In this document: in pieces, positions 2,250 to 62,035 of the stretch
Position numbering within the stretch: the stretch's first letter is position 1
Layout of the letters: each line of letters begins with the position of its first letter
Origin: Sphingobium sufflavum
GTDB taxonomy: Bacteria; Pseudomonadota; Alphaproteobacteria; Sphingomonadales; Sphingomonadaceae
Direction of reading: 5' to 3'
DNA length: 64,000 bases
Assembly (NCBI RefSeq): GCF_021403115.1
Contig: NZ_JAJSSH010000007.1
Location: 1-64,000 of the forward strand
Made by a program: the position numbers and the translations under genes
Notes under the pieces: generated by a model
Database searches by the model: none
The model's input: the letters and a program-made list of their open reading frames with translations, nothing else
What the model was told of the DNA's origin: nothing

Positions 2250-3521
2250 GTGAGCGAGACGACATCATCCACCGCCGCCGCCGAATGGAAGACAGGCTGG
2301 ACACTGGTCCTGGCCGCTTCGATGGGCTTTTCCTTCTTCTCGCTCCTGCTCGCGGCGATGGGCCTGTTCATTGAGCCGCTGACGAAGGAGTTCGGCTGGA
2401 CCCGGACGCTCCTGTCCTCCGGGCCGTCGATCGCGGTGACGATCACCGCCATCCTATCGCCCCCCTTTGGCATATTGATCGACCGCTTCGGATCGCGGCG
2501 GCTGGTCCTGCCCGGCCTCATCATCACCATAGCGGCCACCTGCGCGTTCAGCCTCATCGACGGTTCGCAGACCCAATGGTATATATTGTGGGCGATCTTC
2601 GGCGTGGTCGCCGTGACCATCAAATCGACCGCTTGGACGGCGGGCGTGCTGGGCTGTTTCAGCCAGGCGCGCGGCCTCGCCCTCGGCCTCACCCTGTCCG
2701 GCACGGCGGTCGCACAGATGGTGGTGCCGCCGCTGACCAACTGGCTGATCGACGGTTTCGGCTGGCGCGGCGCGTTCATCGGGCTGGGGCTTGGCTGGGG
2801 TGGCCTGACCTTCATCCTGTGCCTGCTCTTCTTCTTCGACGCGCATGACCGCGCCAAGGCGAAGAAGAAGGCGAACATCGTTCAGGACGAGGGCGCAAAG
2901 GTCGCCCTGACCGGCCTCACCCCCGGCCAGGCGCTGCGCGATTCCGCCCTGTGGCGGGTCGGTATTTCGAATTTCGTGGTGATGGTGCTGACCATCGGCC
3001 TGATGCTGCACATCTTCCCCATCCTGACCGAAGCGGGCGTGTCGCGCACCCATGCGGCATGGCTGGCCAGCCTGTCCGGCCTGGCGGGGATCATCGGCAA
3101 GCTGGTGACAGGCTTCCTGCTCGACCGCTATCGCCCCAACTGGATCGGCGGCATCACCCTCGCCATCATGTCCCTCGCCTTCCTGCTGCTGATGGACGGC
3201 ATCCGCTCGCCCGCGCTCATCATCTGCGCGATGATCGTGAACGGCTATGCGTTCGGCACCAAGACGCAGATCACCGGCTTCCTGACCGCGGGCTATGGCG
3301 GACTGAAGCATTTCGGCGTCATCTATGGCGTGATGGGCGCGCTGATGGCGCTGGCGTCGGGCCTCGGCCCCATGACGGCGGGCATCATCTACGATCAGGC
3401 GGGCGGTTATGGCCCGTTCCTGCTGGCGGGCGCGATCGGCTGCGCGCTGGGCGGGGTGCTGATGATGACCCTGCCCGCCTATCCGGTGTGGACGAAAAAG
3501 GAGGAGGGCGCGGTCGCCTGA
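2250..3521 (+). CDS. MFS transporter, monocarboxylate/OFA-like
   Basis: Protein of 423 residues with about twelve hydrophobic segments starting at GWTLVLAASMGFSFFSLLL. The loop after TM2 (GILIDRFGSRRLVL) carries the major facilitator motif D-R-x-G-x-R-R. The sequence resembles carriers for small carboxylates (oxalate/formate antiporter-like). It is the only transporter in the catabolic cluster, so it may import the substrate, but that is inference. The GTG at 2250 is preferred because gagagggagagg precedes it; ATG 2196 is an in-frame alternative giving 18 more residues. Confidence 0.85.
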   Translation: MSETTSSTAAAEWKTGWTLVLAASMGFSFFSLLLAAMGLFIEPLTKEFGWTRTLLSSGPSIAVTITAILSPPFGILIDRFGSRRLVLPGLIITIAATCAFSLIDGSQTQWYILWAIFGVVAVTIKSTAWTAGVLGCFSQARGLALGLTLSGTAVAQMVVPPLTNWLIDGFGWRGAFIGLGLGWGGLTFILCLLFFFDAHDRAKAKKKANIVQDEGAKVALTGLTPGQALRDSALWRVGISNFVVMVLTIGLMLHIFPILTEAGVSRTHAAWLASLSGLAGIIGKLVTGFLLDRYRPNWIGGITLAIMSLAFLLLMDGIRSPALIICAMIVNGYAFGTKTQITGFLTAGYGGLKHFGVIYGVMGALMALASGLGPMTAGIIYDQAGGYGPFLLAGAIGCALGGVLMMTLPAYPVWTKKEEGAVA

Positions 3522-3576
3522 CCCCGCCCTCCCCGTCTTTCTCCTGATGGTGGGTGGATCAGGCCGCCCGTCACCA

Positions 3577-3678
3577 GAGCATTTTCGAGCATTTTCGGGT
3601 TGGCCGTTGACAGTCAACGTCTCGGAAAATGCGGCATCAAGAGACAAGAGCGTTTTCGCTCAATGGAAAAAACGCTCT
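3577..3678. repeat. dispersed intergenic palindrome element, copy 1
   Basis: Contains gcattttc/gaaaatgc outer arms, the inner palindrome CGTTGACaGTCAACG (3605-3619), and the hairpin agagcgtttt (3647-3656) with aaaacgctct (3669-3678). Related sequence occurs at 4614-4718 and 35991-36038. It lies between convergent genes and may also end transcription. Confidence 0.6.
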
Positions 3679-4597
3679 AACCCCCGTTGCGCGCCATTGC
3701 GAAGCTGCGGCCGAGATGCTCCATATAGCCTTCGCGCGCCGGCAGCAGCCAAAGATTTTCGCTGGTGTCGCGGATCGCGTCGATATTCTCCGCAACATCG
3801 TCGATGCTCCACTCCGGGCGATAGATGCCCTGCGATTCCGCGATCAGCGCCCGCGCGACACGGCCACCGACCGACACATAGAGTTCGCCGGAGACGGAGC
3901 AGCTCTCATGGCTCAGCCAGCCGACGACCGGCGCCACCAGTTCCGGCCCCATCGGCGGATATTGCGACACGTCCAGCCCATCGGCCATGCGCGTCACCGC
4001 GCCGGGCAGGATGACGTTGGACTTCACGCCCCGCTCCGCCCCTTCGATGGCGATGACATTGTTGAGGCCGATCATGCCCGCCTTCGACATGCCATAGTTC
4101 ACGACCTGATGCGTGCCATAGAGGCCGCCGATGGAGCCGGTCAGCACCACCCGGCCATAGCCTGCCCCCGCCATGCGCGGAAATGCGGGCCGCACGACAT
4201 GGAAAGCGCCCATCAGATGGACGTCGATGACCGACTTGAAATCTTCGTCGCTGATCTCGTCCAGCGACCCGTAACGGACATTTCCCGCGTTATGGATCAA
4301 AATGTCGATCTGGCCATAGCTGTCGAGCGCGGCCTCGATGATCGCCTTGCCGCCCTCCGGCGTTGCCACGCTGTCGGTGTTGGCCACGGCCTCACCGCCC
4401 AGCGCCCTGATCTCGTCCACCACCTGCTGCGCGACGCTGGTGTCGGTGTCACTCTCGCCGCCGCGCATCGCGCCACCCAGATCGTTGACCACGACCTTCG
4501 CGCCCTTCGACGCCAGCAGCAGCGCATATTCACGGCCCAGCCCCCGGCCGGAGCCGGTGATGACGGCCACCCGGCCATCGAAGCGTCGTTCGGTCAT
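3677..4597 (-). CDS. SDR family oxidoreductase (MFE-2/hydroxyacyl-CoA dehydrogenase-like)
   Basis: Protein of 306 residues. The NAD(P)-binding motif TGSGRGLG lies at residues 14-21, the NAG motif at HNAGN, the catalytic Ser in VVLTGSIGG, and YxxxK in NYGMSKAG. The loop VVVNDLGG after the second strand and the overall length resemble the dehydrogenase domain of multifunctional enzyme type 2, which acts on 3-hydroxyacyl-CoA. A roughly 50-residue tail (YRPEWSIDDVAENIDAIRD) lies beyond the usual SDR core. Intergenic repeat elements flank it on both sides, so it is probably transcribed alone. The substrate is inferred only from family resemblance. Confidence 0.85.
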   Translation of the reverse strand: MTERRFDGRVAVITGSGRGLGREYALLLASKGAKVVVNDLGGAMRGGESDTDTSVAQQVVDEIRALGGEAVANTDSVATPEGGKAIIEAALDSYGQIDILIHNAGNVRYGSLDEISDEDFKSVIDVHLMGAFHVVRPAFPRMAGAGYGRVVLTGSIGGLYGTHQVVNYGMSKAGMIGLNNVIAIEGAERGVKSNVILPGAVTRMADGLDVSQYPPMGPELVAPVVGWLSHESCSVSGELYVSVGGRVARALIAESQGIYRPEWSIDDVAENIDAIRDTSENLWLLPAREGYMEHLGRSFAMARNGG

Positions 4598-4613
4598 TAA
4601 TAGTCTCCGTCAG

Positions 4614-4718
4614 CTAGAGCATTTTCGAAGCGGATGGCATCACCTGCTGGCTCGGAAAATGCGGAAAACAAAAGACGAATAGAGCGTGATCCGATTCAGC
4701 ATGATCGGATCACGCTCT
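4614..4718. repeat. dispersed intergenic palindrome element, copy 2
   Basis: Starts with agagcattttcg and gaaaatgcgg as in copy 1. It ends in a perfect 15-base inverted repeat: AGAGCGTGATCCGAT (4681-4695) and ATCGGATCACGCTCT (4704-4718) around an 8-base loop. It lies directly upstream of the SDR at 3677-4597. Confidence 0.65.
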
Positions 4719-4843
4719 ATATATCGCTATGGGGTGCAGGATCATCGTCCCGGCCTCTCCGTTCGTATCGCCCCGCCAGCCCCGGGACGGCAGGAGGCCA
4801 CAAGGTCTCCCGTCATCCGGGCTGCGGATAACAATAAAAAGGG

Positions 4844-5698
4844 TCAGACCGGCGCCCACAGCGGCGATCCCCGCTCCGCCCGCAACGACGGGATGGTGCG
4901 GCCGTCGATGTCGGTCACGCCATAATCGGCCGCCAGTTCGGCGTTGATGAAGGTTCCACCGGTCCGCGCCAGCACGTCCTCGTCCTTGGCCAGCGCCGCG
5001 ATCACCCGGCCCGGAAACTCCGGCGAGCTGCCTGCCGCGCTGTTGAGCTGCGCCGCCATGCCCGGCACCGTGCGCAGATTCTCCTGCGCCCGCTCCGTAT
5101 AGGTAAAGCCCTGCCACAGGGAGAGGGAGGCGACGCCATGCGGCTTCAACTCCACCGCCATGTCCCGCGCCATGCGGTCCGTCGCGGTCTTGGTCAGCCC
5201 GAATATGGTGTCATAAGTATAGGTCACGCCGACATAGCCGGACAGGGCGACGATCAGGCCCGACTTCTGCGGCGCCATGATCTGCGCCGCATACCATGCC
5301 GCGACGAAAGCCGCGCGAACGCCCGTGTCGAAGATTTCCCAGTTGGAGAGCGGCTTCTCCCAGAAACCGATGCGCTGCGTCATCTCCGGCGGGATCGCCA
5401 TCGCATTGTTGACGAGGATGTCGAGCCGACCCTGCTCCGCCTTCAACTGCGCGAACAGGGCGGCGATGGACGCATCGTCGTTCAGGTCCAGGGCGACGGC
5501 AATACCCTTGCCGCCGCGCCGGTTCACTTCGGCGACCGTCTCGCCGATGGTGCCGGGCAGAGGCCCCGCACCGGCGTCCACCGTGCGGCCCGTCACATAG
5601 ACGGTGGCCCCTTCCTCGCCGAGCACTGACGCTATGCCCTTGCCGATACCCCGGCTGGCACCGGTCACGACCGCTACCTTGCCCGTCAGTGCTCCCAT
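4844..5698 (-). CDS. SDR family protein, DHRS1-like, catalytic Tyr replaced by Phe
   Basis: Protein of 284 residues. The cofactor motif TGASRGIG is at 12-19, NNAM at 97-100 and Ser153 in ALSGYVG. The C-terminal half (RDMAVELKPHGVASLSLWQG) resembles the DHRS1 branch of SDRs. The usual YxxxK reads IFGLTK, so Phe166 stands where the catalytic Tyr should be and Lys170 is kept. The codon is ttc on the coding strand, so this is read directly. The gene starts 13 bases upstream of the map end of the monooxygenase gene and lies downstream of it on the same strand, so the two may be co-transcribed. It may be a non-catalytic or altered-mechanism SDR. Confidence 0.85.
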   Translation of the reverse strand: MGALTGKVAVVTGASRGIGKGIASVLGEEGATVYVTGRTVDAGAGPLPGTIGETVAEVNRRGGKGIAVALDLNDDASIAALFAQLKAEQGRLDILVNNAMAIPPEMTQRIGFWEKPLSNWEIFDTGVRAAFVAAWYAAQIMAPQKSGLIVALSGYVGVTYTYDTIFGLTKTATDRMARDMAVELKPHGVASLSLWQGFTYTERAQENLRTVPGMAAQLNSAAGSSPEFPGRVIAALAKDEDVLARTGGTFINAELAADYGVTDIDGRTIPSLRAERGSPLWAPV

Positions 5699-5711
5699 TC
5701 CATCCCTCTTG

Positions 5712-7568
5712 TTATTCCGCCGGTTCGGCCTCGGCCGATTTGCGGAGCGTCAGCCCCTCAAGATCGCCCTTGTTGCGCCAGTCACCGACCATCTGCTGGA
5801 AATTGGCCCAGCCATAACCCCAGCTGTGGAACAGCGCCCACTTGGGATTCTTGTCGCCTTCATTGTTGAAGTAGCTGGGCGTGCATTCGCTCTGGAACGC
5901 GGACAGGTCGACCGCGATCTCCTGGAACGTCTTCACATAGGCGTCCTGCGCCTCCTGCGTCGGCTCGACCGAGGTCAGGCCGCGCTTCAGGGCCTCCGCG
6001 ATGATATAGGCGGAGTGATAGCCCTGCTGGCCGAACTGTTCCGTGACGGAGGCATAGGCCGCGCCCTGGATATAGCCGATGAAGAACTGGTTCGGGAAAC
6101 CATGGGTCATCGTGCCGTGCAGCGTCTTAGGGCCTTCGCGCCAATGATCGTAGATGGACTCGCCGTTGCGGCCGACCACCGTGTCGATGCCCCAGCGACG
6201 CTCCAGATCCGACGTCACCTCGAAGCCGGAGGCGAAGATCATGCAATCGACCTCGACCTCTTCACCATTATGGATGAAGCCCTTCTCGGTCATCGCTTCC
6301 AGACCCTGCGTCGCCGACACGTCGATCAGCTTGACGTTGGGACGGTTGAAGGTCGGGTAATAATCGTCGTTGGACAGCGGACGTTTGCACAGGAAGCGAT
6401 AATAGGGCTTCATCGCCTCCGCCGTCGCCGGATCGTCGACGAGGGTTTCGACGCGCTGGCGCATGCGCTCCATCACCTGATAGTCGACCATCTCGCGCCG
6501 GGACATGAACTCCTCGACGGACATTTCGGGCCAGCCCTCGGCGTTCAGTTCGGCGGCCAGGTTGCGCGCGACTTCGGTCCAGATGTCGCAGATCTGATCC
6601 TTCTCGCCGGGCAGGAACATTTCCATCGCGGCGCGGTGGAAATTGTCCATGCGATCTTTCTGCCAACCCTTGGGCAGCGAGGCGACCCATTCAGGGTCGG
6701 TGTGCGGGTTCGGCCGCTCATCGACACTGGAGGGGGTGCGCTGGATCACATAGAGCTGCTTGGCATGCTTGCCCAGCGACGGAACCGCCTGCACCGACGT
6801 CGCGCCGGTACCCAGAATGGCCACCGTCTTGTCGCCCAGCTTGTCCAGTACGGGACTGCCATAGCTGCCGCCGGTATAGTCATATTCCCAGCGCGACGTA
6901 TGGAACATCTTGCCCTTGTAGCTGTGGATGCCGGGGATGGCGGGCAGCTTGGGCATGTTCATCACGCCGCAGGCCATGATGACGAACTTGGCGCGAATGT
7001 CATCGCCGCGGTTGGTCGTGACCTTCCACCGCTGCGCCGCGTCGTCCCATTCCAGATTGGTGATCTGGGTGTGGAACAGCGCGCGGTCGGCAAAGCCGGT
7101 CTTGTCCGCGATCAGGCGGCAATAGCCCTGAATCTCGCGCCCGTCGGAGAATTTCTGGCTGGGCATGAAGCCCATTTCTTCCAGCAGCGGCAGATAGATC
7201 AGCGCGTCATTGTCGCACTGCACGCCCGGATAGCGGTTCCAGTACCAAACGCCGCCGAAATCGCCCGAAATGTCGATGTTGCGGAAATTGGTTACGCCCG
7301 CATTGGTCAGGTGATAGGCCGCGATGGTTCCGCCCCAGCCCGCGCCCAGCACGATGACGTCGATCTCTTCCGAAATCGGGTCGCGCGGGGTGACCGGCAT
7401 GTGCGGATCGGCGGTATAATCCTTGACCGGCGACTCCTCGGTCGGGCGCACATATTGCGCCTGTCCCTTGGTGCTGACGCGCTTGTCGCGCTCCAGCAGA
7501 TATTTCTCGCGCAGCGCGGGGATGTTGATGGCGTCCTTGGGCGGGGTCTTGGTTGGCTGGCAGGTCAT
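5712..7568 (-). CDS. Baeyer-Villiger-type flavin monooxygenase (class B)
   Basis: Protein of 618 residues. After an N-terminal extension of about 65 residues comes the FAD-binding motif GAGWGG (75-80). The fingerprint YKGKMFHTSRW (217-227) matches FxGxxxHxxxW with Tyr for Phe, and is followed by Glu where Pro or Asp is usual. The NADPH-binding motif GTGATS is at 253-258, and the QRTP segment resembles the active-site Arg region. Such enzymes insert oxygen next to a ketone to give esters or lactones, using NADPH and O2. SDRs and SnoaL-like proteins around it fit oxidation of an alcohol to a ketone, then to a lactone. The substrate is unknown. Confidence 0.88.
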   Translation of the reverse strand: MTCQPTKTPPKDAINIPALREKYLLERDKRVSTKGQAQYVRPTEESPVKDYTADPHMPVTPRDPISEEIDVIVLGAGWGGTIAAYHLTNAGVTNFRNIDISGDFGGVWYWNRYPGVQCDNDALIYLPLLEEMGFMPSQKFSDGREIQGYCRLIADKTGFADRALFHTQITNLEWDDAAQRWKVTTNRGDDIRAKFVIMACGVMNMPKLPAIPGIHSYKGKMFHTSRWEYDYTGGSYGSPVLDKLGDKTVAILGTGATSVQAVPSLGKHAKQLYVIQRTPSSVDERPNPHTDPEWVASLPKGWQKDRMDNFHRAAMEMFLPGEKDQICDIWTEVARNLAAELNAEGWPEMSVEEFMSRREMVDYQVMERMRQRVETLVDDPATAEAMKPYYRFLCKRPLSNDDYYPTFNRPNVKLIDVSATQGLEAMTEKGFIHNGEEVEVDCMIFASGFEVTSDLERRWGIDTVVGRNGESIYDHWREGPKTLHGTMTHGFPNQFFIGYIQGAAYASVTEQFGQQGYHSAYIIAEALKRGLTSVEPTQEAQDAYVKTFQEIAVDLSAFQSECTPSYFNNEGDKNPKWALFHSWGYGWANFQQMVGDWRNKGDLEGLTLRKSAEAEPAE

Positions 7569-20311: not shown

Positions 20312-20402
20312 GCAACCGAAAATGCTTGTTTCGCACTTGCCGAAAAACTGAGAGCATCTTATTTACGGCCATGCCTTTCAGGCATCCTCTCCTATAACTC
20401 GT

Positions 20403-20438
20403 GGGCCTGGCCGATTTCTCGGTTAGGCCCTTTTTTTT
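20403..20438 (+). terminator. intrinsic terminator in gene-free region (2)
   Basis: A 12-pair stem, gggcctggccga with tcggttaggccc (two G-U pairs), has a 4-base loop and is followed by eight T at 20431-20438. Very strong, and again with no gene before it. Confidence 0.85.
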
Positions 20439-20537
20439 GCCATTCATTCAAGGTAAAGGTCGCCTTCGTCGGACGGTAGAAAATATGTCAGGAGAGGACG
20501 CCGCCGGGAAAAACCGGCACCAACCGGACGACATAAT

Positions 20538-29495: not shown

Positions 29496-29900
29496 ATGCC
29501 GACCGACCCCACCGATTCCAGCGATCCCGCGCCCACCCTCTCCATCCGCACCCGCCTTTATTGTGGCGAGGACATCGCGATGGGGCCGGGCAAGGTGGCC
29601 CTGCTGGAGGCGATCGCGCGGGAAGGCTCCATCTCCGCCGCCGGGCGCGCGCTGGGGATGAGCTATCGGCGGACATGGATGCTGGTCGACACGATGAACC
29701 GCTGCTGGGTCACGCCGCTGGTGGAAACGGCGGCGGGCGGCACGCAGGGCGGCGGGGCGCGGCTCACCGACCTTGGCCAGACTGTGGCGGCGCACTATCG
29801 CGACCTGGAAGCCCGCATCGCCGCCGCCGCGGAAGGCGCGGCATGGGACAGCCTGCGCGCAGCGATGCTGCCCCGGCCCAAACCGTCGCAGAAGGGTTGA
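29496..29900 (+). CDS. ModE-like HTH regulator without molybdate-binding domain
   Basis: Protein of 134 residues. The core (GPGKVALLEAIAREGSISAA, then GRALGMSYRRTWMLVDTMN) is the winged helix-turn-helix of ModE. It ends (RDLEARIAAAAEG) before any Mop/TOBE molybdate-binding domain, so it is a short ModE. AGGAGG precedes the ATG at 29496. It lies directly upstream of modABC in the same direction, separated by a ten-copy octamer repeat and an operator-like palindrome. It probably represses or activates molybdate uptake; how it senses molybdenum without the usual domain is unclear. Confidence 0.88.
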   Translation: MPTDPTDSSDPAPTLSIRTRLYCGEDIAMGPGKVALLEAIAREGSISAAGRALGMSYRRTWMLVDTMNRCWVTPLVETAAGGTQGGGARLTDLGQTVAAHYRDLEARIAAAAEGAAWDSLRAAMLPRPKPSQKG

Positions 29901-29920
29901 TCGGTCGGCTCTCTGCCCCT

Positions 29921-30000
29921 CCGTCATCCCGTCATCCCGTCATCCCGTCATCCCGTCATCCCGTCATCCCGTCATCCCGTCATCCCGTCATCCCGTCATC
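29921..30000. repeat. tandem repeat, 10 perfect copies of ccgtcatc
   Basis: Eighty bases made of exactly ten head-to-tail copies of an 8-base unit, with no variation. It starts 20 bases after the ModE-like stop and ends 26 bases before the palindrome at 30027. Unit length is not a multiple of three and it is non-coding. It is expected to change copy number by slippage. Confidence 0.97.
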
Positions 30001-30026
30001 CACGCCTCTGGCATCGTCGCCCATAC

Positions 30027-30048
30027 GCTGTATATAGCGAAAAACAGC
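30027..30048. promoter_or_regulatory. candidate ModE operator upstream of modA
   Basis: A 22-base dyad with arms GCTGT and ACAGC and centre ATATAGCGAAAA. Over 25 bases from 30027 it matches the site at 33784 at 19 positions without gaps. It lies 18 bases before the modA start, so a bound protein would block transcription or initiation. The TATA-rich arms resemble known ModE sites. Confidence 0.65.
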
Positions 30049-30065
30049 GACCCTTGGGGACCGAC

Positions 30066-30866
30066 ATGAACCGTATCGACATGCGCCACAGGGCCAGCCG
30101 CCTTTGCCTGTTCCTCCTGGTGCTGCTGGCGGGCGTCGCTCCCGCCGGGGCGCAGGGCGGTGCGGCGCCGTCGAAGGGGCCTCTGGTCCTCGCCGCCGCC
30201 AGCCTCCAGGAATCCCTGACCGCCGCGGCGGACGTCTGGACCGCCCGCCGCCATCCCCGTCCCATCCTCTCCTTCGCCGCCTCCTCCGCCCTCGCCCGGC
30301 AGATCGGGTCGGGCGCGCCCGCCGACCTCTTCATCTCCGCCGACGAACCGTGGATGGACGATGTCGCGGCCAAGGGACTGCTGCGCCCCGGCACGCGCCT
30401 GTCCTACATTTCCAACAGGCTCGTTTTAGTGGCTTCGGTTGGTCATCCTGTAAAATTGACCATCCGCCGCAAATTCCCCCTCGCCGCCGCGCTCGGCACC
30501 GGCCGCCTCGCCATGGCCGACCCGGACTCCGTTCCCGCGGGCAAATATGGCAAGGCCGCGCTCACCGCCCTCGGCGTCTGGTCCAGCGTCGAGCCGCGCG
30601 TCGCCCGCGCCGAGAATGTCCGCGCCGCCCTCGCCCTGGTCGAACGGGGAGAGGCACCACTCGGCATCGTCTATGCCACCGACGCGCTGGCGTCGAAGGG
30701 CGTCCGCGTCATCGGCACCTTCCCCGCCAGCAGCCACCCGCCGATCACCTATCCCATCGCCGTCCTGAAAAGCGCGACCAGCCGCGACGCCGAATCCTTT
30801 CGCCGCTTCCTGATCTCGCGCGAGGGTAAGGCGATCTTCGCCCGCTACGGCTTCACGCCCCGATAA
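30066..30866 (+). CDS. modA: molybdate ABC transporter substrate-binding protein
   Basis: Protein of 266 residues. The signal peptide (LCLFLLVLLAGVAPAGAQ) is followed by the mature protein with ModA features: VLAAASLQESLTAAA near the N terminus, FAASSALARQI with anion-binding Ser residues, PADLFISADEPWMD, and a late ITYPIAVLK segment. It binds molybdate or tungstate in the periplasm. One base separates its stop from the modB ATG. The start at 30066 is preferred over 30081 because of gggga upstream. Confidence 0.95.
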   Translation: MNRIDMRHRASRLCLFLLVLLAGVAPAGAQGGAAPSKGPLVLAAASLQESLTAAADVWTARRHPRPILSFAASSALARQIGSGAPADLFISADEPWMDDVAAKGLLRPGTRLSYISNRLVLVASVGHPVKLTIRRKFPLAAALGTGRLAMADPDSVPAGKYGKAALTALGVWSSVEPRVARAENVRAALALVERGEAPLGIVYATDALASKGVRVIGTFPASSHPPITYPIAVLKSATSRDAESFRRFLISREGKAIFARYGFTPR

Positions 30867-30867
30867 C

Positions 30868-31569
30868 ATGGCGCTGCTCAGTCCGGAGGAATGGGAGATC
30901 ATCACCCTGTCGCTCAAGGTCGGCGGGGTTGCTGTGGCGGGCACGATGCCGGTCGCCTTCCTCTTCGCCTGGCTGCTCGCCCGCGTCCGCTTTCCGGGCA
31001 AGCTGCTGCTCGACGGCATCGTCCACCTGCCGCTCGTCCTGCCGCCGGTGGTGACGGGCTGGCTGCTGCTGCTGGCGTTCGGCAATAACGGCCCGGCGGG
31101 GCGTTTCTTCGCCGAGACATTCGAACTCACCTTCATGTTCCGCTGGACCGGAGCCGCGCTCGCTGCCGCTATCATGGCGCTCCCCCTGATGGTTCGCGCC
31201 ATCCGCCTCTCCCTCGAAGCGGTCGACCGGCGGCTGGAGGGAGCGGCACGTACGCTGGGCGCAGGCCCAGTCCGCACCTTCCTGACCATCACCCTGCCGC
31301 TGTCCCTGCCCGGCGTGCTGGCCGGCGCGGTGCTGGGTTTCGCCCGCTCCATCGGTGAATTTGGCGCGACGATCACCTTCGTCTCCAATATCCCCGGCGA
31401 GACACGCACCCTGCCCCTCGCCATCTACAGCGCGCTCCAGATGCCCGGCGGCGAGCAGACCGTCACCCGTCTCGCCTTCATCGCGGCGCTGCTATCGCTC
31501 GCCGCGCTGATGATATCGGAGATACTGGCCCGCCGCGCCGGATCGGGACGGGGCGGCCATGTCCTCTGA
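30868..31569 (+). CDS. modB: molybdate ABC transporter permease
   Basis: Protein of 233 residues with about five membrane helices. PLVLPPVVTGWLLLL is typical of ModB, and the EAA loop reads EGAARTLGAGPVRTFLTITL. FARSIGEFGATITFVSNIPG is the ModB signature. It forms the inner-membrane channel with ModC. It overlaps modC by 11 bases. Confidence 0.96.
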   Translation: MALLSPEEWEIITLSLKVGGVAVAGTMPVAFLFAWLLARVRFPGKLLLDGIVHLPLVLPPVVTGWLLLLAFGNNGPAGRFFAETFELTFMFRWTGAALAAAIMALPLMVRAIRLSLEAVDRRLEGAARTLGAGPVRTFLTITLPLSLPGVLAGAVLGFARSIGEFGATITFVSNIPGETRTLPLAIYSALQMPGGEQTVTRLAFIAALLSLAALMISEILARRAGSGRGGHVL

Positions 31570-32209
31570 CCCCGCGCATCCCGCCCCCCTCGCGTTCGAC
31601 ATCGACGTCAGCCGCCGCCTCGGCGACGCCTCCATCCGCCTGACGCTGCGCGCGGATCCGGGCCTGACCGCGCTCTTTGGCCCATCGGGCGCGGGAAAGA
31701 CCAGCATCCTCAACATGGTCGCGGGCCTCCTCCGCCCGGACGAGGGGCATATCAGGGTCGCGGGCGAGACGCTGTTCGATGCCGCCCGCCGCGCCGACCT
31801 GCGCCCGGAACGCCGCCGCGCGGGCTATGTCTTTCAGGACGGCCGCCTTTTTCCCCACTGCCGTGTCCGGGCGAACCTCCTCTATGGCGTGCAGCGGGTC
31901 GCGCAGGGGGATCGCTGGATGACCCTGGACGAGGCGGTCGCCTTCCTCGGCATCGGCGCCCTCCTCGACCGCTTGCCCCACACCCTGTCCGGCGGCGAAG
32001 CGCAGCGCGTCGCCATCGGCCGCGCCCTCCTCTCCTCCCCCCGCTTCCTGCTGATGGACGAGCCGCTCGCCTCCCTCGACGCCGCCCGGCGGGAGGAGAT
32101 CATGACCGTCATCGAACGCATCCGTGACGAGTTAAAACTGCCCATCCTCTACGTCAGCCACGACCGGGCGGAGGTGGAGCGGCTGGCCACCACCATCGTG
32201 CCACTATAG
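31559..32209 (+). CDS. modC: molybdate ABC transporter ATP-binding protein, short form
   Basis: Protein of 216 residues. Walker A is GPSGAGKTS, the signature LSGGEAQRV, Walker B LLMDEPLASLD and the switch His is in YVSHD. It stops soon after the switch (RLATTIVPL), so the C-terminal Mop/TOBE domain of typical 350-residue ModC proteins is absent. It powers molybdate import. Its last six bases overlap the end of the convergent MauG-like gene. Confidence 0.95.
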   Translation: MSSDPAHPAPLAFDIDVSRRLGDASIRLTLRADPGLTALFGPSGAGKTSILNMVAGLLRPDEGHIRVAGETLFDAARRADLRPERRRAGYVFQDGRLFPHCRVRANLLYGVQRVAQGDRWMTLDEAVAFLGIGALLDRLPHTLSGGEAQRVAIGRALLSSPRFLLMDEPLASLDAARREEIMTVIERIRDELKLPILYVSHDRAEVERLATTIVPL

Positions 32210-33180
32210 CCGCCTTCCGCACGCCCGGTCCGGCATGGACAGGCGAGGATCGGTAACGAAATCCTGGTCGGTCAGCGCCTCCAAAAAGGAGATGATCGCG
32301 GCTCGATCGGTCCCGACAATGCCCAGACGATGGCGGTCGATCGCCTCCGCCAGCCCGCCTGACAGGCCATCATGGAAATAGGGGGCGGTCAGCGCCACAT
32401 TCCGCAGACCCGGCGTACGAAAACGACCGTCGTCCTCGACCCGTCCGGTCGCTTCGCCCAATCCCCGCTCCCCGGCAACGGGCGCTTCCAGACGATGGAA
32501 GGCCCCGTCGGTGAAATGTGGCCCGGCATGGCACCCGGCACAGGCTGGCGCGAACAGCGCCGCACCCCTGCGCGCTTCATCCGACAATGCGCCCCGGTCG
32601 TAGGGGCTGCCGAAGGAGATCAGCGTCCGCTCGAACGCTGCAATTGCCTTCGCCACCGTCGCCATGCCGATGGCGCCCCGCTCCTTGGGAAAGGCCTTCG
32701 CGAATTGCCTTACATAACAGGGATCGCGAGAGAGCCGGGCGGCGATCTCCGCCTCCTGCCCCTTCATCCCCATCTCGACCGGATGCTCGCCCAGCAAGGG
32801 GACCAGCAACTGCATCTCCAGCGTCGTCTGGCGCGGATCGGCCCAGGTCAGCGGGGCAAGCCAGCCGACATTGGCGAGGCCCTGCACATTGCGCCGCCCC
32901 GGATCGCCATGCACGCCGGGGCGCGTGCGGTTGCCGTCGGCAAAGGCGCGCTTCTGCTCATGGCAGGCCGAACAGGCCATAGTGCCGTCCACCGACAGGT
33001 CCGCATCATAGAAGAGCCGCCGCCCCAGTTCGACCCGCGCCGCCGTCATGCCATTGTCGGCGGGCACCGGCGGCGCAGTGATACCCACCGGCAATCCCAT
33101 CGCCATCCGGGCGCAGCCGCGCCACCGACGCCCGTCGTCAGCAGCAGCGCCGCGATCAGGCCCGCCCATTGTGCGTGCAT
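32204..33180 (-). CDS. MauG-family di-haem cytochrome c peroxidase-like protein, apparent frameshift after signal peptide
   Basis: The haem domain (downstream of about 33120) has two c-type haem sites, CSACHEQ and CAGCHAG, and the family start RVELGRRLFYDADLS. The only good start, ATG at 33180, is one base after the stop of the upstream gene and opens with a signal peptide (MHAQWAGLIAALLLTTG). That frame, however, stops soon after GVGGAAAPG. The haem domain is in another frame, open from 33169 without a secretion signal. A one-base difference between about 33130 and 33090 would join them. It is either a frameshift mutation or a sequencing error. Such proteins oxidise a partner protein or reduce peroxide in the periplasm. 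Confidence 0.75.
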
Positions 33181-33181
33181 G

Positions 33182-33757
33182 TCAGGGCAGTCGCGCGATC
33201 ATCACCGGCAAGCTTTCCGCGCCGTTCGCGGCCAGTTGCAGCACATGGCGGCCGGGGGTGAGCGGGAAGTCCACCATCTTGCGGACGCCCGAACACTCCG
33301 GGCCATGGCCATGGGCGGTGGAGGCAACCGCCTTGCCGTCGCGCAACAGGTCGATCCACGCACCGGACCCCAGCGCCACCCGGTAGAGGCCCGGCTGCTT
33401 CACGGTAAAGGTGAACAGGCCGCCATAGCTGACCGAGCCACCGGGCTTTTCCGGGCGCAGGAGATAGCGGACATCTGCGGTGCGGCGGAGCGTGGCATCC
33501 ACCGCCTGCCCGACGGTCAGCACCGCCCGGCCCAACCCCGCCCTGTCCTTCGCCGCCGGGGCGAGAGAGCGGTTCGACCAACCGGATAATTCGGGCGGCA
33601 AGGCGACCCGCACCAGCGCGCAGTCGGGCGCGGGGCGTTCCGCCGCGGGGGCCGCGGGCTGGGCCAAAACGGCGCCCGGCGTCAGGGCGGACATTACAAC
33701 TATACCAACCAAAAAGCCCTTTTTGCGCCGGCCCCAAATGCCCGTTTCCATGCCCAT
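33182..33757 (-). CDS. secreted protein of unknown function, partner of MauG-like gene
   Basis: Protein of 191 residues. The signal peptide after a basic start (GRRKKGFLVGIVVMSALTPG) probably ends at AQ. The mature part looks all-beta (LFTFTVKQPGLYRVALGSGA, TPGRHVLQLAANGAE). It has two Cys (PDCALV and PECSGV), an HGH motif (AHGHGPEC), and two exposed-type Trp (SGWSN, GAWID). I do not recognise a named family. It is first in an operon with the MauG-like gene and diverges from the TonB receptor across a ModE-like palindrome. The ATG at 33757 has aaggg upstream; GTG 33763 is poorer. Confidence 0.8.
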   Translation of the reverse strand: MGMETGIWGRRKKGFLVGIVVMSALTPGAVLAQPAAPAAERPAPDCALVRVALPPELSGWSNRSLAPAAKDRAGLGRAVLTVGQAVDATLRRTADVRYLLRPEKPGGSVSYGGLFTFTVKQPGLYRVALGSGAWIDLLRDGKAVASTAHGHGPECSGVRKMVDFPLTPGRHVLQLAANGAESLPVMIARLP

Positions 33758-33783
33758 TTTCACCCTTCCCTTCCAACATCATA

Positions 33784-33805
33784 GCTATATACGGCGAGAT
33801 ATAGC
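33784..33805. promoter_or_regulatory. candidate ModE operator in TonB receptor divergent promoter
   Basis: Perfect inverted repeat GCTATAT (33784-33790) and ATATAGC (33799-33805) with an 8-base centre ACGGCGAG. It is similar in sequence and length to the site before modA. It lies 26 bases from the minus-strand gene start and 44 bases before the TonB receptor start, so it could control both. Confidence 0.65.
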
Positions 33806-33849
33806 GACTCGCCAGACAATTGTGGGCGCGGACAAAAGGGGCTTTATCC

Positions 33850-35949
33850 ATGCGTTATTCGACCGCGCTCGCGGCCACGGCATCCTTCATCCTGTCGGTT
33901 CCCGCCGCCGCGCAAACGGCAGCGGCAGCGCCCGACACCGCCAGCGACGCCTTCACCCTGGGCCAGATCACCGTCGTCGGCGCGAAGACGAACGACCTCA
34001 CCATCGGCACCAGCAACCTGAACGCGGAGGCGATGCTGACCTTCAACCGGCCCACGCTGGACGAGGCGGTGAACCTGATCCCCGGCGTCACCGCATCCAA
34101 CAGCGGCGGATCGCGCAACGAGCGGCTGATCTTCGTGCGCGGTTTCGACCGGTTCCAGGTGCCCCTCTCCATCGACGGCATCCGCGTCTACCTGCCCGCC
34201 GACAACCGGCTGGACTTCGGGCGCTTCCTGACCGCCGACGTGTCAGAGGTGCAGGTGGCCAAGGGATACGCCTCCGTCCTGGACGGTCCGGGCGCGATGG
34301 GCGGTGCGATCAACCTCGTCACCCGCAAGCCGACCAAGGCGCTGGAAGCGGAAGTCGGCGGCACGCTGAACCTCGACCATGACGCCAATTATAGCGGCTA
34401 TAATGTCTTCGCGCTGCTCGGCACGAAGCATGACCAATGGTATGCGCAGGCCAGCTTCACCCGCAATTTCCGCGACCATTGGGATCTGGCCAGCGGCTTC
34501 CGCCCGACCGTCAACGAGGATGGCAGCCCGCGCGACTTCACCAGGACCGCCGACTGGCGCGCCAATGTGAAAGTCGGCTTCACCCCCAACGCCACCGACG
34601 AATATTCGCTGAGCTATACCCGGCAGGAAGGGTCGAAGAACGCGCCCCTGCACATCACGGAGACGAGCCAGCAGGTCCGCCGTTTCTGGAGCTGGCCGGA
34701 ATGGAATATCGACAGCGTCTATTTCCTGTCCACCACCGCGCTGGGCGAGAAGGCGACGCTCAAGACCCGCGTCTATTATAATGAATTCTACAACATGCTG
34801 CGGTCGTTCAACAACGCCAGCCAGACGACGCAGACGACCACCGGCGGCAGCAGCGGCGGCCCGGCGACGTTCGACAGCCCGTACAGCGACAATGCCTATG
34901 GCGGCGCCGTCCAGCTCGACGCCAAGCTGACCGGACGCGACACGCTCAGCGTCGCGGTGCATTACCGTCGCGACGAGCATAATGAGCGCCAGATTTCCGC
35001 GCCGGGCATCCCCACCAACGTCTATGAACCCAACCAGCGCAACGTGGAGACGACCTATAGCGTCGCGGTGGAAAATCGGCTGGACGTGTCCGACAGCCTG
35101 CGCCTGACGCTGGGCGCCAGCTATGACTGGCGCGACACCGCGCAGGCGGAGGAATATAGCGGCGCGCGCGGCCTCTACAGCTTCCCGCTCGTCAATGCCG
35201 ATGGCTGGAACGGACAGGGCCGGCTGGACTGGACGGGCGGCGATGGCACCAACGCCTATGCCAGCGTCTCCTCGCGCGTCCGTTTCCCCACCATCTTCGA
35301 ACGGTTCAGCAGCCAGTTCAACAACGCCGACCCCAACCCCTATCTGAAGCCGGAGCGGGCCACCAATTTCGAGGTCGGCGGCGGTCGCCAGTTCGGCCCC
35401 GCCCATGTCTCCGTCGCAGCCTTCTACAGCCGCCTGACCGACGCGCTGGTGTCCATCCGCAACGGTACGCTCAACCGCCGCGAGAATATCGGGTCCGCCG
35501 ACTATTATGGCGCGGAACTGTCGTTGGAGGCGCAGATCACACCCGCGCTGCGGATCGGCGGCAACTACAGCTATATCCACCGCACATTCGATGTGGGCGC
35601 GGCCCCCATCGGCGGCTTCATCCGCCAGTTCCAACTGACGGACGTGCCGGAGCACAAGGGTTTCGCCTATGTCTCCTGGCGGCCTGTCGAACGGCTGGAG
35701 ATCGTGCCCAGCCTAGAGGTGGCGTCCAGCCGCACGACCGTCACCGCCATCACCGCCAATGCGGACGCGCCGACCTATTATCCCACCGGCTCCTACGCCA
35801 ATGGCGCGATCCGGGTGGATTATGCGGTGCTGCCGCAGGTGACGCTGGGCGTGGGCGCGAAGAATCTGTTCGATCAGAATGTGGTGCTGACCGATGGTTT
35901 CCCGGAGCCGGGGCGCAGCTTCTTCCTGAGCGTCCGCGCGAAATATTGA
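33850..35949 (+). CDS. TonB-dependent outer-membrane receptor, candidate for molybdenum uptake
   Basis: Protein of 699 residues. The signal peptide ends in AAAQ. The plug domain runs about 45-160 (EAVNLIPGVTASNSG, IFVRGFDRFQVPLSIDG, GPGAMGGAINLVTRKP). The 22-strand barrel follows, ending in the outer-membrane signature FFLSVRAKY. No N-terminal signalling extension is seen, so it is not of the FecA sigma-regulated type. The substrate is not readable from the sequence. The ModE-like palindrome in its promoter and its place between modABC and a molybdoenzyme suggest a molybdenum or tungsten complex. A perfect hairpin ends it. Confidence 0.9.
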   Translation: MRYSTALAATASFILSVPAAAQTAAAAPDTASDAFTLGQITVVGAKTNDLTIGTSNLNAEAMLTFNRPTLDEAVNLIPGVTASNSGGSRNERLIFVRGFDRFQVPLSIDGIRVYLPADNRLDFGRFLTADVSEVQVAKGYASVLDGPGAMGGAINLVTRKPTKALEAEVGGTLNLDHDANYSGYNVFALLGTKHDQWYAQASFTRNFRDHWDLASGFRPTVNEDGSPRDFTRTADWRANVKVGFTPNATDEYSLSYTRQEGSKNAPLHITETSQQVRRFWSWPEWNIDSVYFLSTTALGEKATLKTRVYYNEFYNMLRSFNNASQTTQTTTGGSSGGPATFDSPYSDNAYGGAVQLDAKLTGRDTLSVAVHYRRDEHNERQISAPGIPTNVYEPNQRNVETTYSVAVENRLDVSDSLRLTLGASYDWRDTAQAEEYSGARGLYSFPLVNADGWNGQGRLDWTGGDGTNAYASVSSRVRFPTIFERFSSQFNNADPNPYLKPERATNFEVGGGRQFGPAHVSVAAFYSRLTDALVSIRNGTLNRRENIGSADYYGAELSLEAQITPALRIGGNYSYIHRTFDVGAAPIGGFIRQFQLTDVPEHKGFAYVSWRPVERLEIVPSLEVASSRTTVTAITANADAPTYYPTGSYANGAIRVDYAVLPQVTLGVGAKNLFDQNVVLTDGFPEPGRSFFLSVRAKY

Positions 35950-36038: not shown

Positions 36039-38240
36039 CTAGACCGCCGGCAGTCCGCCGATCAGCTTGTCCAGCGTGATGGGATAGTCGCGCACCCGCA
36101 CCCCGCAAGCGTTGTAGATGGCGTTGGCCACCGCCGCGCCGACGCCGCAGATGCCCAGTTCGCCCACGCCCTTGGCCTTCATGGGGGAGGAGATGGGGTC
36201 CACCTCATCGAGGAAGATCACCTCCTGATGCGGGATGTCGGCATGGACCGGCACCTCATAGCCGGCGAGGTCGTGGTTGACGAAGAAGCCGAAGCGGCGG
36301 TCCACCACCAGTTCCTCCATGAGCGCCGCGCCGACTCCCATGACCATCGCGCCGATCACTTGGCTGCGCGCGGTCTTGGGGTTCAGGATGCGGCCCGCCG
36401 CGCACACCGCCAGCATCCGCCGCACCCGCACTTCGCCGGTCGCCGCATCCACCGCCGCCTCCACGAAATGCGCGCCGAAGGTGGACTGCTGATAGCGTTT
36501 GTCGAGGTCGCCATATTCGATGGCGTCGTCCACCGTCAGATCACCCTCCGCCGCCGCCTGCGCCAGCGGCACATGGCGGTTGCCCGCGCGGACCATGCCG
36601 TCCTCAAAGACCGTCTCGGCGGAGTTGAAGCCCAGTTTCAGCGCCACATCCTCCCGCAACTTCATACAGGCGGCAAAGACGCCGGAGGTGGCATTATGCG
36701 CGCCCCACTGGCCGCCCGACCCCGCCGACACGGGGAAACGGGAATCGCCCAGCAGCACCTCCACACTGTCCAGCGGCACGCCCATCGCTTCCGCTACGGT
36801 CTGAGCGATGATGGTGTAGCTGCCGGTGCCGATGTCGGTCATGTCGGTCATCACCGTCACCCGCCCATCGCGGTTCAGCACGACGCGCGCGGCGGACTTC
36901 ATCGGGACATTGTTGCGGAAGGCGGCGGCGACGCCCATCCCGACCAGCCAGCGCCCGTCCCGCACCGCGCCGGGTGCGCGGCGCCGGTCCCAGCCGAACG
37001 CCGCCGCCCCCTCCTCGAAACAGCGGGTCAGTTGCCGCAGGGAGTAAGGCCGTTCGGGATTTTCGGGGTCGACCTGCGTATCGTTCAGGATGCGAAAGGC
37101 GATGGGGTCCAGCCCCAGCCTCTCCGCCATCTCGTCCATCGCGATTTCCAGCGCCATCATGCCGGGGGCCTCGCCGGGCGCGCGCATTGCCCCGCCCTCC
37201 GGCAGGTCCAGCACCGCGAGCCGGGTGGTGGTCATGCGATCCGCCCCGGCATAGAGATAGCGCGTCTGCTGCACCGCCGCCTCCGCCGATCCGCCGGGCA
37301 GGTTGCCGGACCAGCCCTCATGCCCGATGGCGGTGATCCGCCCGTCCGCCGTCGCGCCGATGCGGATGCGCTGGAGGGTGGCGGGGCGGTGGGTGGTGTT
37401 GTTGATCGACTGGGGCCGGGTGAGCGCGACCTTGACCGGCCGCCCCACCGCCCGCGCGCCGACCGCCGCCAGCAAAGCATCCGCCCGCACGCCCAGTTTC
37501 GCCCCGAACCCGCCGCCGATATAGGGGGAGAGGATGCGGACATTCTGCGGGTCGAGGCCGAGAAGCATCGCCATGGCGCGCCGCGCGCCCGCGATCATCT
37601 GGCTGGAGGTCCACAGGGTCAGCGCCTCCCCTTCCCACAGGGCGAGCGAGGCGTGCGGCTCCATCATCACATGGCTATGATCGGGGGTGCTGTACTGCTG
37701 GTCGAACCGGACCGGGGCCGCCGCGAAGGCCGCATCGAAATCGCCCACCGCCGTGTCCGACTCCCCGCCGAAGATGGACGGGGGCATGACCGCGGCGTCC
37801 TTCTCCGCCGCGAGGTCGTAGCGGCCCTGTTCGCGGGCATAGTCGATGCGGATCAGCCGGGTGGCGGCGCGCGCCTCCTCGAAACTCTCCGCCACGACGA
37901 GGGCCACCGCCTGATCGTAGGAGCTGACGCGCGGCCCGGCGAGCAGCGCCAGCGGCGGCCCCTTGGGCTGCGCGATCTTGCCCGCATTCTCATACGTGAT
38001 GACCGCCAGCACGCCGGGCGCCGCCTCTGCCGCCGCCGTGTCGATGGACCGGATACGCCCGGTGGCGATGGCCGCGCCCAGTATGACGCCATAGGCCGGG
38101 TTCGGAACGGCCGCATGATGCTCATAGGCGTAGGGCGCGCGGCCGCTGGTCTTGAGCGGACCGTCGATGCGGTCGACGGGATGGCCGATGATCGTCAGCC
38201 GGTCGATGGCGTTGCCGGTGGCGGGCGTATCGAACTTCAT
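36039..38240 (-). CDS. xanthine dehydrogenase family molybdenum-binding subunit (PaoC-like)
   Basis: Protein of 733 residues. The aldehyde-oxidase alpha/beta hammerhead domain comes first ([13 protein letters not shown]), then the molybdopterin-binding domain with GGGFGAK and [10 protein letters not shown]. The catalytic Glu is in [12 protein letters not shown] near the C terminus. It carries the molybdenum cofactor and oxidises an aldehyde or heterocycle with water-derived oxygen. The start at 38240 overlaps the FAD-subunit gene by four bases. Residue order and the partners match the E. coli PaoABC periplasmic aldehyde oxidoreductase. Confidence 0.93.
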
Positions 38241-39190
38241 GGCCGCACCTCCGCCAGCGCGGAGACAAGCGTTCGCTCCACCAGTGGCAGCTTGAAGGCG
38301 TTTTCGCTCGTCGTCTTCGCCCCGGTCAGCAATGCCTCGACCGTCGCCCGCGCCCCGCGCGGGAGCAGCGCGTCGGCATCCTCCACGCGCCAGGGCCGGG
38401 GCGCGACCCCGCCCAGCGCCACCCGGCCGGAGCCATCCTCCTGCACCACCATGCCCACCGCGATCAGCGCGAAGGCATAGCTGCTGCGGTCGCGCACCTT
38501 GCGATAGACATGGGTGCCGCCGATGGGCGGCGGCAGGGTGACGGCGGTGATGAGTTCGCCCGGCTCCAGCCCATGTTCGACATGGGGCGTGTCGCCGGGG
38601 AGGGTCAGCAGGGTCGCGACCGGAATCGCATGGGTGCTGCCGTCCGCGCGCACCGTCTCCACTATTGCGTCCAGCAGGCGCATCGCCACCGCCATGTCGC
38701 TGGGGTGGGTGGCGATGCACACCTCGCTCGCGCCGACGACCGCATGGTTGCGGCTGAACCCGCCGATAGCCGCACAGCCGCTGCCCGCCATGCGCTTGTT
38801 GCACGGCTGGTTGCCATCGTAGAAATAGGGGCAACGGGTGCGCTGGAGCAGGTTGCCCGCCGTCGTCGCCTTGTTCCGCAACTGCCCGGATGCCCCGGCC
38901 AGCAGCGCACGGGCCAGCACCGCATAGTCGCGCCGCACCCGCCGGTCTGCGGCCAGGTCGCTGTTGCGGACCAGCGCGCCGATCCGCAGGCCACCCTCCG
39001 GCGTCTCCTCGATCCGGTCCAGCCCGGCCAGCCGGCTGATGTCCACCAGATGGGCCGGCGTCTCAATCTCCAGCTTCATCAGGTCGAGCAGGTTGGTGCC
39101 GCCCGCAATGAAGCGCGCGCCGGGCGTTCCCGCCACCCGCGCCGCCGCCGCCGCGGGCGAGGTCGCCCGTTCATAGTCGAACGTCCTCAT
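38237..39190 (-). CDS. xanthine dehydrogenase family FAD-binding subunit (PaoB-like)
   Basis: Protein of 317 residues with FAD-binding [15 protein letters not shown] and [15 protein letters not shown]. Cys residues in RCPYFYD, QPCNKR and GSGCAA match the extra [4Fe-4S] site known from PaoB. It passes electrons from the molybdenum subunit through Fe-S centres to FAD. Genes on both sides overlap by four bases, so the three subunits are translationally coupled. Confidence 0.93.
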
Positions 39191-39699
39191 ACCCGTTCCT
39201 CCGCCGCATCGGTGATGGCGTCCACGATATTGGAGTAAGCGCCGCAGCGGCACAGGTTGCCGCTCATCCGCTCGCGTATCTCCTCCCCGCTGAAGGTAGC
39301 GGGCGCGTCGAGGTCCGGGCTGACATGGCTGGGCATGTCGGCGCGTATCTCGTCCAGCGCCGCGACCGCCGAGCAGATCTGCCCCGGCGTGCAATAGCCG
39401 CATTGATAGCCGTCATGCTTGATGAAGGCCGCCTGCATCGGGTGCAGGTCGCCAGGCGCGCCCAGCCCCTCGATCGTGGTGATCGCGTCCCCGTCGTGCA
39501 TCACCGCCAGCGTCAGGCAACTGTTGATGCGCCGCCCCTCCACGATGACGGTGCAGGCCCCGCACTGGCCATGGTCGCACCCCTTCTTGGCCCCGGTCAG
39601 GTGAAGATGCTCGCGCAGCGCATCCAGCAGGGTCGTGCGCGTGTCCAGTTCCAGCGCATGATCCTGACCATTGACCGTGAGAGCGAGGCTATGACGCAC
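39187..39699 (-). CDS. xanthine dehydrogenase family [2Fe-2S] subunit (PaoA-like)
   Basis: Protein of 170 residues from GTG 39699. The plant-type [2Fe-2S] ligands are [10 protein letters not shown], and the second cluster ligands are QCGYC and CRC. The GTG has aagg upstream. The frame stays open to an ATG at 39879, adding 60 residues that include a twin Arg and a hydrophobic run (ARRWLWTVSALV). E. coli PaoA is exported by the Tat route, so the longer start is a possible Tat signal, but it lacks a clear ribosome site. The location of the enzyme is therefore open. Confidence 0.9.
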
Positions 39700-39936
39700 A
39701 GGCGATGACCTTATTCCAGAAAAACGCTGGCTTGCGGGATGCCGGGCCGCGTGGTCGCGTACCCCAAAGGAAACCGGAGCCAGCGGCGCGGCGACCCGGC
39801 CGATTGCCGCGCGGGAATAGGGCACAAGCGCCGATACTGTCCATAGCCACCTTCGCGCAGGAGGGATGATGCAGGGCATAGCGGGCGGAAGCGCCAGAGG
39901 TTCCGCCCGAACCGTCGCCAGCCCACCACGCCCCCC

Positions 39937-61799: not shown

Positions 61800-62035
61800 G
61801 GACGACTCCCTCGTTGGTCAGTCATCCCCTCCCGTTTGCCCGATCATATGCGCCTTGCGCGCGCTGGCAAGCCCGGCGAGGGGCAGCCTGTCGCCATAGT
61901 GTCATCTTTACCGCCCGGAACCGCAGATAGGCGCGCGACTGTTGCCCCCGTGCATCATCATTCGACCTTGGCAGCGGTCCGCCAAGTCCCTACACAGGCC
62001 GCTGAAGGCAGGCTCCATGGCCCGCCTTCGCTGAT

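Follow-up and report, generated by a model that had tools for sequence, protein, structure and literature searches.

We analysed a 64,000-nucleotide window of Sphingobium sufflavum DNA (contig NZ_JAJSSH010000007.1, positions 1 to 64,000; host genome 4.43 Mb) and in it a locus that joins a ModE-type regulator to a TonB-dependent receptor. The gene for the regulator, a helix-turn-helix (HTH) protein, is followed by modABC, then by two genes on the minus strand for a di-haem enzyme and a secreted protein that we call SecP, and then by the divergent, plus-strand receptor gene (Table 1, in window coordinates). The genes, order, strands and coordinates of the original prediction, a note made from this DNA, were confirmed when the window was rechecked. 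That note had proposed that the receptor imports a molybdenum or tungsten complex, perhaps bound to a siderophore, with the MauG-type enzyme and the secreted protein helping to release or capture it, and it had pointed to matching palindromes before modA and in the divergent promoter. Below, numbers beginning with L and G denote our loci and genomes.

Table 1. Features of the locus and its downstream neighbour. Bits are profile scores, with model cut-offs in brackets.
Feature	Position	Strand	Evidence
ModE-type HTH regulator, 134 amino acids, no Mop/TOBE domain	29496..29900	+	TIGR00637 86 bits (cut-off 98.5); Pfam HTH_1 30.7 (cut-off 26.6)
Weak ModE-type box before modA, GCTGTAT-N8-AAACAGC	30024..30051		13/20 informative positions of the E. 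coli consensus
modA	30066..30866	+	TIGR01256 184 bits (cut-off 62.5)
modB	30868..31569	+	TIGR02141 216 bits (cut-off 182.6); sole modB above cut-off in the genome
modC, short form	31559..32209	+	TIGR02142 274 bits (cut-off 285); profile positions 3-203 of 353 matched, C-terminal part unmatched
MbnH/MauG-type di-haem enzyme gene	32204..33169	-	CCP_MauG 149 bits; TIGR04039 286 bits (cut-off 362.85)
Secreted beta-sandwich partner SecP with KPGGSVS loop	33182..33763	-	Model with predicted local distance difference test (pLDDT) score 88.9
Predicted ModE-type operator in the divergent promoter, GCTATAT-N8-ATATAGC	33784..33805		17/20 of the ModE consensus; no second exact copy in the 4.43 Mb genome
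TonB-dependent receptor, ModE-linked clade	33850..35949	+	Plug PF07715 60 bits and barrel PF00593 115 bits, both above cut-off
paoABC-type molybdenum hydroxylase operon, directly downstream of the receptor	36039..39879	-	PaoC 1281 bits (cut-off 1180); PaoA 340 (cut-off 322)

Candidate operators were scored against the E. coli ModE consensus ATCGNTATATA-N6-TATATANCGAT, as printed in the accessible part of PMC545781, which has 20 informative positions; binding is predicted here from sequence only. The palindrome in the divergent promoter is perfect and has the same spacing as the consensus. A search of its own genome with up to three mismatches was uninformative, returning 84 sites against 79 for a control pattern. 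The box before modA is weak when taken alone, because an unrelated place in the window (4701) also scores 13; of the two palindromes named originally, the divergent one is borne out and the modA one is a weak match. Across the Sphingomonadales, the window included, modA promoters score at least 12 in 12 of 13 cases versus 61 of 790 control stretches, and the Caulobacterales modA promoters have no consensus box, reaching 9–10 of 20 at 4/4 loci. Receptor promoters carry a box scoring at least 13/20 in 64 of 86 cases; of 4003 control stretches taken from these loci, 35 do so. Two loci (L040/L115 and L041/L153) are apparently included twice among the 86. In 13 of 22 loci picked for diversity, the best consensus match anywhere in the locus (12–22 kb) falls within the promoter of the receptor or of its operon.

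Some further boxes lie outside this setting. The motif GCTATAT-N8-ATATAGC stands before a SecP relative that lies downstream of genes resembling, by eye, FecR and an STN-type TonB receptor (L047, 6077-6098; L048, 6598-6619), where it may serve a second receptor type. On plasmid pCMU01 (L220), three additional ModE-type boxes (15045, 16215 and 18802; 15–16 of 20) lie near DUF2478 and glp genes. Between modE and modA in the window (29920-30000), a tandem 8-base unit (CGTCATCC) is also visible by eye.

The association of the receptor with ModE extends to other genomes. We took the best 80 of 135 receptor loci from a scan of named genomes; some of these are related and so do not count independently. 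At 29 of the 80 a ModE gene is present within 10 kb, and at 26 of those it is less than 2.2 kb away; chance would give a ModE neighbour to about 0.5% of receptors, assuming one ModE per 4 Mb genome. SecP is found within 3 kb at 62 loci and the di-haem enzyme within 3 kb at 50, and modA or modB lies within 10 kb at five. ModE is therefore a commoner neighbour of the receptor than modABC, whose presence in the window is a less common arrangement; the search suggested originally, for modABC beside this receptor family, found it at few loci. In an order-level survey of 296 genomes, with the receptor searched under a strict limit, a ModE match of at least 45 bits occurs in eight of nine receptor-bearing genomes versus 43 of 296 overall (hypergeometric P = 9e-7), and SecP occurs in 38 of the 296. 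Phenylobacterium and Caulobacter sp. AP07 have a receptor–modE arrangement, encoding two TOBE domains, together with modA or modBA. Independent molybdenum contexts across the clade include modBA (L156), modCBA (L212), ModD (L160 and L217) and Mop (L039 and L179).

The regulator itself differs between these loci. Full-length ModE with two TOBE domains is encoded at L151, L156, L160 and L214, and Pfam and NCBIfam profile scans of the 134-residue window protein found neither of the two Mop/TOBE molybdate-binding domains. Mop stands directly ahead of modE in G273, the sole case among ten genomes searched. An HTH-only modE with a Mop (molbindin) gene of its own immediately before it, which amounts to a split ModE, was read at L039 (8120-8746), on what by eye resembles a mobile element. 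ModE adjoins SecP at L051 and L186, where no receptor was found in the stretch, and L051 also encodes a TauE/SafE-type membrane protein.

Beyond the order, relatives of the receptor were found in 5 of 384 other genomes in a class-level search and in 8 of 397 in a phylum-level search; one genome is common to both, giving 12 genomes and 13 loci. A molybdenum-specific gene is present in the stretch read at 7 of these 13. Full-length ModE is divergent from a receptor–DUF2478–binding protein–ATP-binding cassette (ABC) series at L214, modCBA is divergent from ModE–receptor at L212, and L211 reads ModE–receptor–SecP. At L217 the order is binding protein–FecCD–ATPase–methyltransferase–ModD–receptor, at L179 the receptor is accompanied by Mop and a binding protein, and at L181 and L182 by XdhC and YqeB or YqeC. 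A ModE match of at least 74 bits occurs somewhere in 10 of the 12 genomes; the two that lack one (G367 and G577) also lack a convincing box. In two trees, a fully supported branch separates all clade members (32 and 22 rows, chosen by sequence similarity, not by gene context) from the nine other receptors that each tree contains, with clade support of 100/99 in the second. The outside receptors are those present in the loci, joined in the second tree by four from K-12 (FhuA, BtuB, FepA and CirA), and some of the branches are long. The clade reaches the Gammaproteobacteria, and part of its members adjoin modE, modABC, modD, Mop, XdhC/YqeC or moaA–nar.

A plasmid search (23 records) brought up an operon of E. 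coli whose genes are annotated as an iron ABC transporter, a methyltransferase, ModD and, in last place, a TonB-dependent receptor. This operon is matched in 2102 of 5426 complete E. coli genomes, over at least 80% of the query in 2094, at 2097 chromosomal places and eight on plasmids. Its promoter holds a 19/20 site whose centre lies 36 bp upstream of the first gene, the next best in 19.8 kb scoring 13; the operon boxes of four further strains score 18, 17, 17 and 17, and that of K-12 modA scores 16. In the treA–ymgE interval, K-12 has ycgY instead of the operon that other strains carry there (compared with 83972). In Pseudomonas aeruginosa, annotation places the receptor and then a molybdopterin-type small protein convergent with moaA and narIJHG, and the receptor has a 17/20 box centred 26 bp upstream. 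In Methylorubrum extorquens CM4, the receptor, again with a box of 17 before it, is followed by an insertion sequence and then by SecP and an MbnH-like enzyme.

Taken together, these findings suggest that the ModE-regulon TonB-dependent receptor family carries molybdenum (or tungsten) across the outer membrane, a reading of substrate and role to which we give a probability of about three in four. It is based on gene linkage, operator-like sequences, phylogeny and the co-occurrence of a SecP loop with the di-haem enzyme (see below). The central proposal of the original prediction, a TonB receptor within a putative molybdenum regulon, is strongly supported by the conserved linkage, operator-like sites and phylogeny, with E. 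coli and P. aeruginosa included; its further suggestions, a siderophore-bound substrate and a part for the enzyme and SecP in release or capture, stand as conjecture.

The main rival explanation is that the receptor imports iron, as a siderophore or haem, and that control by ModE merely adjusts the iron supply to molybdoenzymes or nitrate respiration. Annotators label the receptor as siderophore transport, the solved structures and models closest to it belong to siderophore, haem and B12 receptors, and the linked ABC systems are of the FecCD/Peripla_BP_2 type. In addition, a partial Fur-like match (13/19 of the Fur consensus; the cirA promoter scores 14) overlaps the E. coli operon promoter. 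The window promoter, however, has no Fur-like site (best 9/19, in a crude scan that gave just 11 for the fepA stretch), and the genes linked to the receptor are molybdenum-specific at many loci (modABC, modD, Mop, XdhC and YqeB). Haem and siderophore NCBIfam models fall far below their cut-offs (haem receptor TIGR01785, 132 bits against 317), and the haem-receptor histidine between FRAP-like and NPNL-like boxes is absent from six of six aligned receptors. HI_1472 (MolA), Peripla_BP_2-like and a molybdate binder, is also among the eight PDB matches, not the best of them, of the linked binding protein at L179. On balance, we consider import of iron improbable.

Several observations weigh against molybdenum acquisition as the role of the family. 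Molybdate is small enough for porins and is thought to reach the periplasm that way. Deposited annotations give siderophore transport for clade receptors. ModE was not found in the covered stretch at 51 of the 80 receptor loci, some of them on short contigs, and the strict search found the receptor in merely 9 of the 296 order-level genomes. Of the 13 distant loci, six (L178, L180, L183, L213, L215 and L216) show none of the genes ModE, mod, Mop or XdhC/YqeB-type within the DNA that was read, and ModE adjoins the receptor in just three (L211, L212 and L214); among the six, L216 carries DUF2478, and L215 and L216 carry the same type of binding protein. The window ModE and every order-level ModE match fall below the TIGR00637 cut-off, and Mop has no match anywhere in the window genome (G000), so that molybdenum sensing is unaccounted for there. 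As for the boxes, 22 of the 86 receptor promoters score 12 or less, the top match lies outside the promoter in 9 of the 22 diverse loci, and no convincing box was seen in Bartonella (L223), G744 (L215) or L180–L183, L180 having an 11/20 site at 220 bp. The lowest promoter scores (9–10) belong to all four loci of known-genus Caulobacter, the three of Phenylobacterium, one of an uncultured Caulobacterales member and one of Xanthobacteraceae; a palindrome seen by eye in the Caulobacter/Phenylobacterium group, GTTATGTA-N7-TACATAAC (L161), has one extra spacer base and scores low with the E. coli consensus. The original note had named, as the outcome that would speak against it, receptor homologues usually found without mod genes and without the palindrome: 51 of the 80 loci show neither ModE nor modA/modB, and the idea survives on the palindrome (64 of 86).

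The di-haem enzyme and SecP bear on a second rival, in which the two make a copper protein, as MbnH/MbnP or CorB/CorA do, and the receptor brings in copper or its chelate. The enzyme is nearest to the MbnH model TIGR04039, and a break near its N-terminus may lower its score: the signal peptide is encoded in one frame and the haem domain in another (break at about 33095, within 33060-33200), the gene is therefore broken or misread, and the break looks like either a real frameshift or a sequencing error. According to the accessible part of PMC3621798, MauG-like di-haem enzymes with secreted partners (MbnH/MbnP and MopE/CorA) often stand beside TonB-dependent receptors, and MbnT-like receptors neighbour MbnP/MbnH. 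SecP differs in belonging to another sequence family, and the regulator linked to it here is ModE-type. It has no NCBIfam match at E 0.1, the MbnP model TIGR04052 included, and no Pfam match above cut-off, which argues that it is not MbnP. Its model is a predicted beta-sandwich that by fold most resembles the C-terminal domains of collagenases (Z about 10); the copper protein CorA appears in the list at Z 5.8, a value within the chance range and too low to weigh, and we did not read fold matches other than the collagenase-domain type as indicating function. OprC is a distant relative of the receptor, and at L042 copB/copA-like genes (3232-6002, by eye) lie about 2.6 kb from modE. L042 aside, no copper genes were noticed beside the receptor, where neighbours were mostly read by eye, and many clade members have retained the ModE box while lacking both the enzyme and SecP. 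We therefore regard a copper role as very improbable.

The loop PxKPGGSVS (with K or R) is present in 47 of 53 SecPs adjoining the enzyme versus 2 of 37 others, these being related and not independent sequences, and one of the two exceptions (L162) has a weak enzyme trace beside it. This co-occurrence suggests that the di-haem enzyme may act on SecP at this loop. Because 25 of 90 aligned SecPs have neither enzyme nor receptor within 1.5 kb (many of the loci being only about 3.5 kb long), SecP alone is not a molybdenum marker; and because many clade members lack the pair, the core function does not depend on it. The pair is best read as a lineage-specific accessory that resembles MbnH/MbnP while scoring below those models or not matching them. 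A second family of di-haem partners, DHOR, adjoins clade receptors at L155 and L213 (by Pfam) and at L221 (by annotation), with a weak match at L180. At these four loci an extracellular solute-binding protein also stands beside the receptor, and TonB is present at L155, L180 and L221. The Prokaryotic Genome Annotation Pipeline label homogentisate 1,2-dioxygenase for a SecP (L224, 8262-8780) has no support that we could see and is probably a wrong name.

A third rival holds that the ligand is a pterin or a fragment of the molybdenum cofactor, not the molybdenum ion, much as PqqU imports pyrroloquinoline quinone. The small protein that follows the receptor in Pseudomonas is of the Oxidored_molyb type (53 bits, cut-off 24), similar proteins occur below cut-off in Phenylobacterium and Caulobacter, and the E. 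coli operon encodes ModD, a phosphoribosyltransferase relative, together with a methyltransferase. ModABC-type systems, by contrast, carry oxyanions, and no cofactor-salvage genes were noticed at the loci, where no search aimed at such genes was made. Of all the explanations weighed here, we hold this one to be the least probable.

For molybdenum acquisition, the mechanism that we infer, from ModE binding and direction of control through TonB dependence and substrate to SecP modification, would run as follows. A ModE-family protein would bind the receptor/secP palindrome and shut both genes off when molybdenum is plentiful. Under scarcity, the receptor would be made, and TonB would power the entry into the periplasm of a molybdenum species, which could be the free oxyanion but is more likely to be a chelate. 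Passage over the inner membrane would then fall to ModABC, replaced in other lineages by a BtuCDF/MolABC-type ABC system, and the molybdenum would supply molybdoenzymes, the adjacent PaoABC among them. The MauG/MbnH-type enzyme of sphingomonads, some Caulobacter and Methylorubrum would probably oxidise a residue in or near the SecP KPGGSVS loop, and oxidised SecP might serve as a periplasmic or surface binding or relay protein. A receptor is more easily explained by a chelate or by extreme scarcity, since porins should let the plain oxyanion through. A more specific version, in which the proteobacterial family is dedicated to a molybdenum chelate, the MauG-type enzyme oxidises a SecP residue to form a molybdenum site as the counterpart of copper MbnH/MbnP, and some operons (modD and methyltransferase, in E. 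coli) process the ligand, is tentative and, in our view, rather unlikely.

Parts of this scheme have counterparts in known systems. The E. coli ModE regulon described in PMC545781 has the same type and spacing of palindrome and the same modABC target; it differs in that the window ModE has no Mop domains and in that the accessible parts of PMC545781 and PMC2700814 name no TonB receptor as a ModE target. The accessible part of PMC8602904 describes OprC–azurin (copper), MnoT–TseM (manganese) and HmuR–TseZ (zinc), in which a TonB receptor induced by shortage of one metal works with a secreted metal-binding partner, a logic that gene content suggests here. The metal, regulator and partner family differ, and the loci that were read gave no sign of a connection to type VI secretion. 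The same source proposes an active outer-membrane route for molybdate through delivery of ModA–IcmP by the Pseudomonas H2 type VI secretion system; this secretion in P. aeruginosa and the TonB receptors for copper, manganese and zinc are the nearest published precedent that we found. Zymomonas fixing nitrogen raises ModD, unspecified TonB receptors and ExbBD, according to the accessible part of PMC8600466. Among the matches listed by a literature search on TonB and molybdenum, none proposed a TonB receptor for molybdenum; subscription papers and RegPrecise lay outside that search, and a prior prediction is possible. The related Peripla_BP_2 binding protein beside distant clade members recalls the MolABC (HI_1472) type of molybdate ABC importer; the window locus has ModABC instead.

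Bacteria may, on this evidence, actively pull molybdenum through the outer membrane. If so, outer-membrane molybdenum supply would be regulated and competed for in Alphaproteobacteria, Gammaproteobacteria and other groups of the phylum, and a receptor carried by more than a third of complete E. coli genomes would stand under an iron label. The reading could change the label of a receptor group that is widespread, assign ModD to a pathway and place a MauG-type enzyme in a new context. A standard host allows a direct test of the idea, because the ModE of E. coli K-12 has been studied well and its treA–ymgE interval is without the operon.

Three minor features complete the description of the window. 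In the paoABC-type operon, the top match of the flavin adenine dinucleotide subunit is 4-hydroxybenzoyl-CoA reductase beta (131 bits, below cut-off). A suhB/mmgR-type small RNA scores barely above the gathering score at 20366-20445, and a cobalamin riboswitch (90 bits) lies at 62026-62280, ahead of a plus-strand open reading frame.

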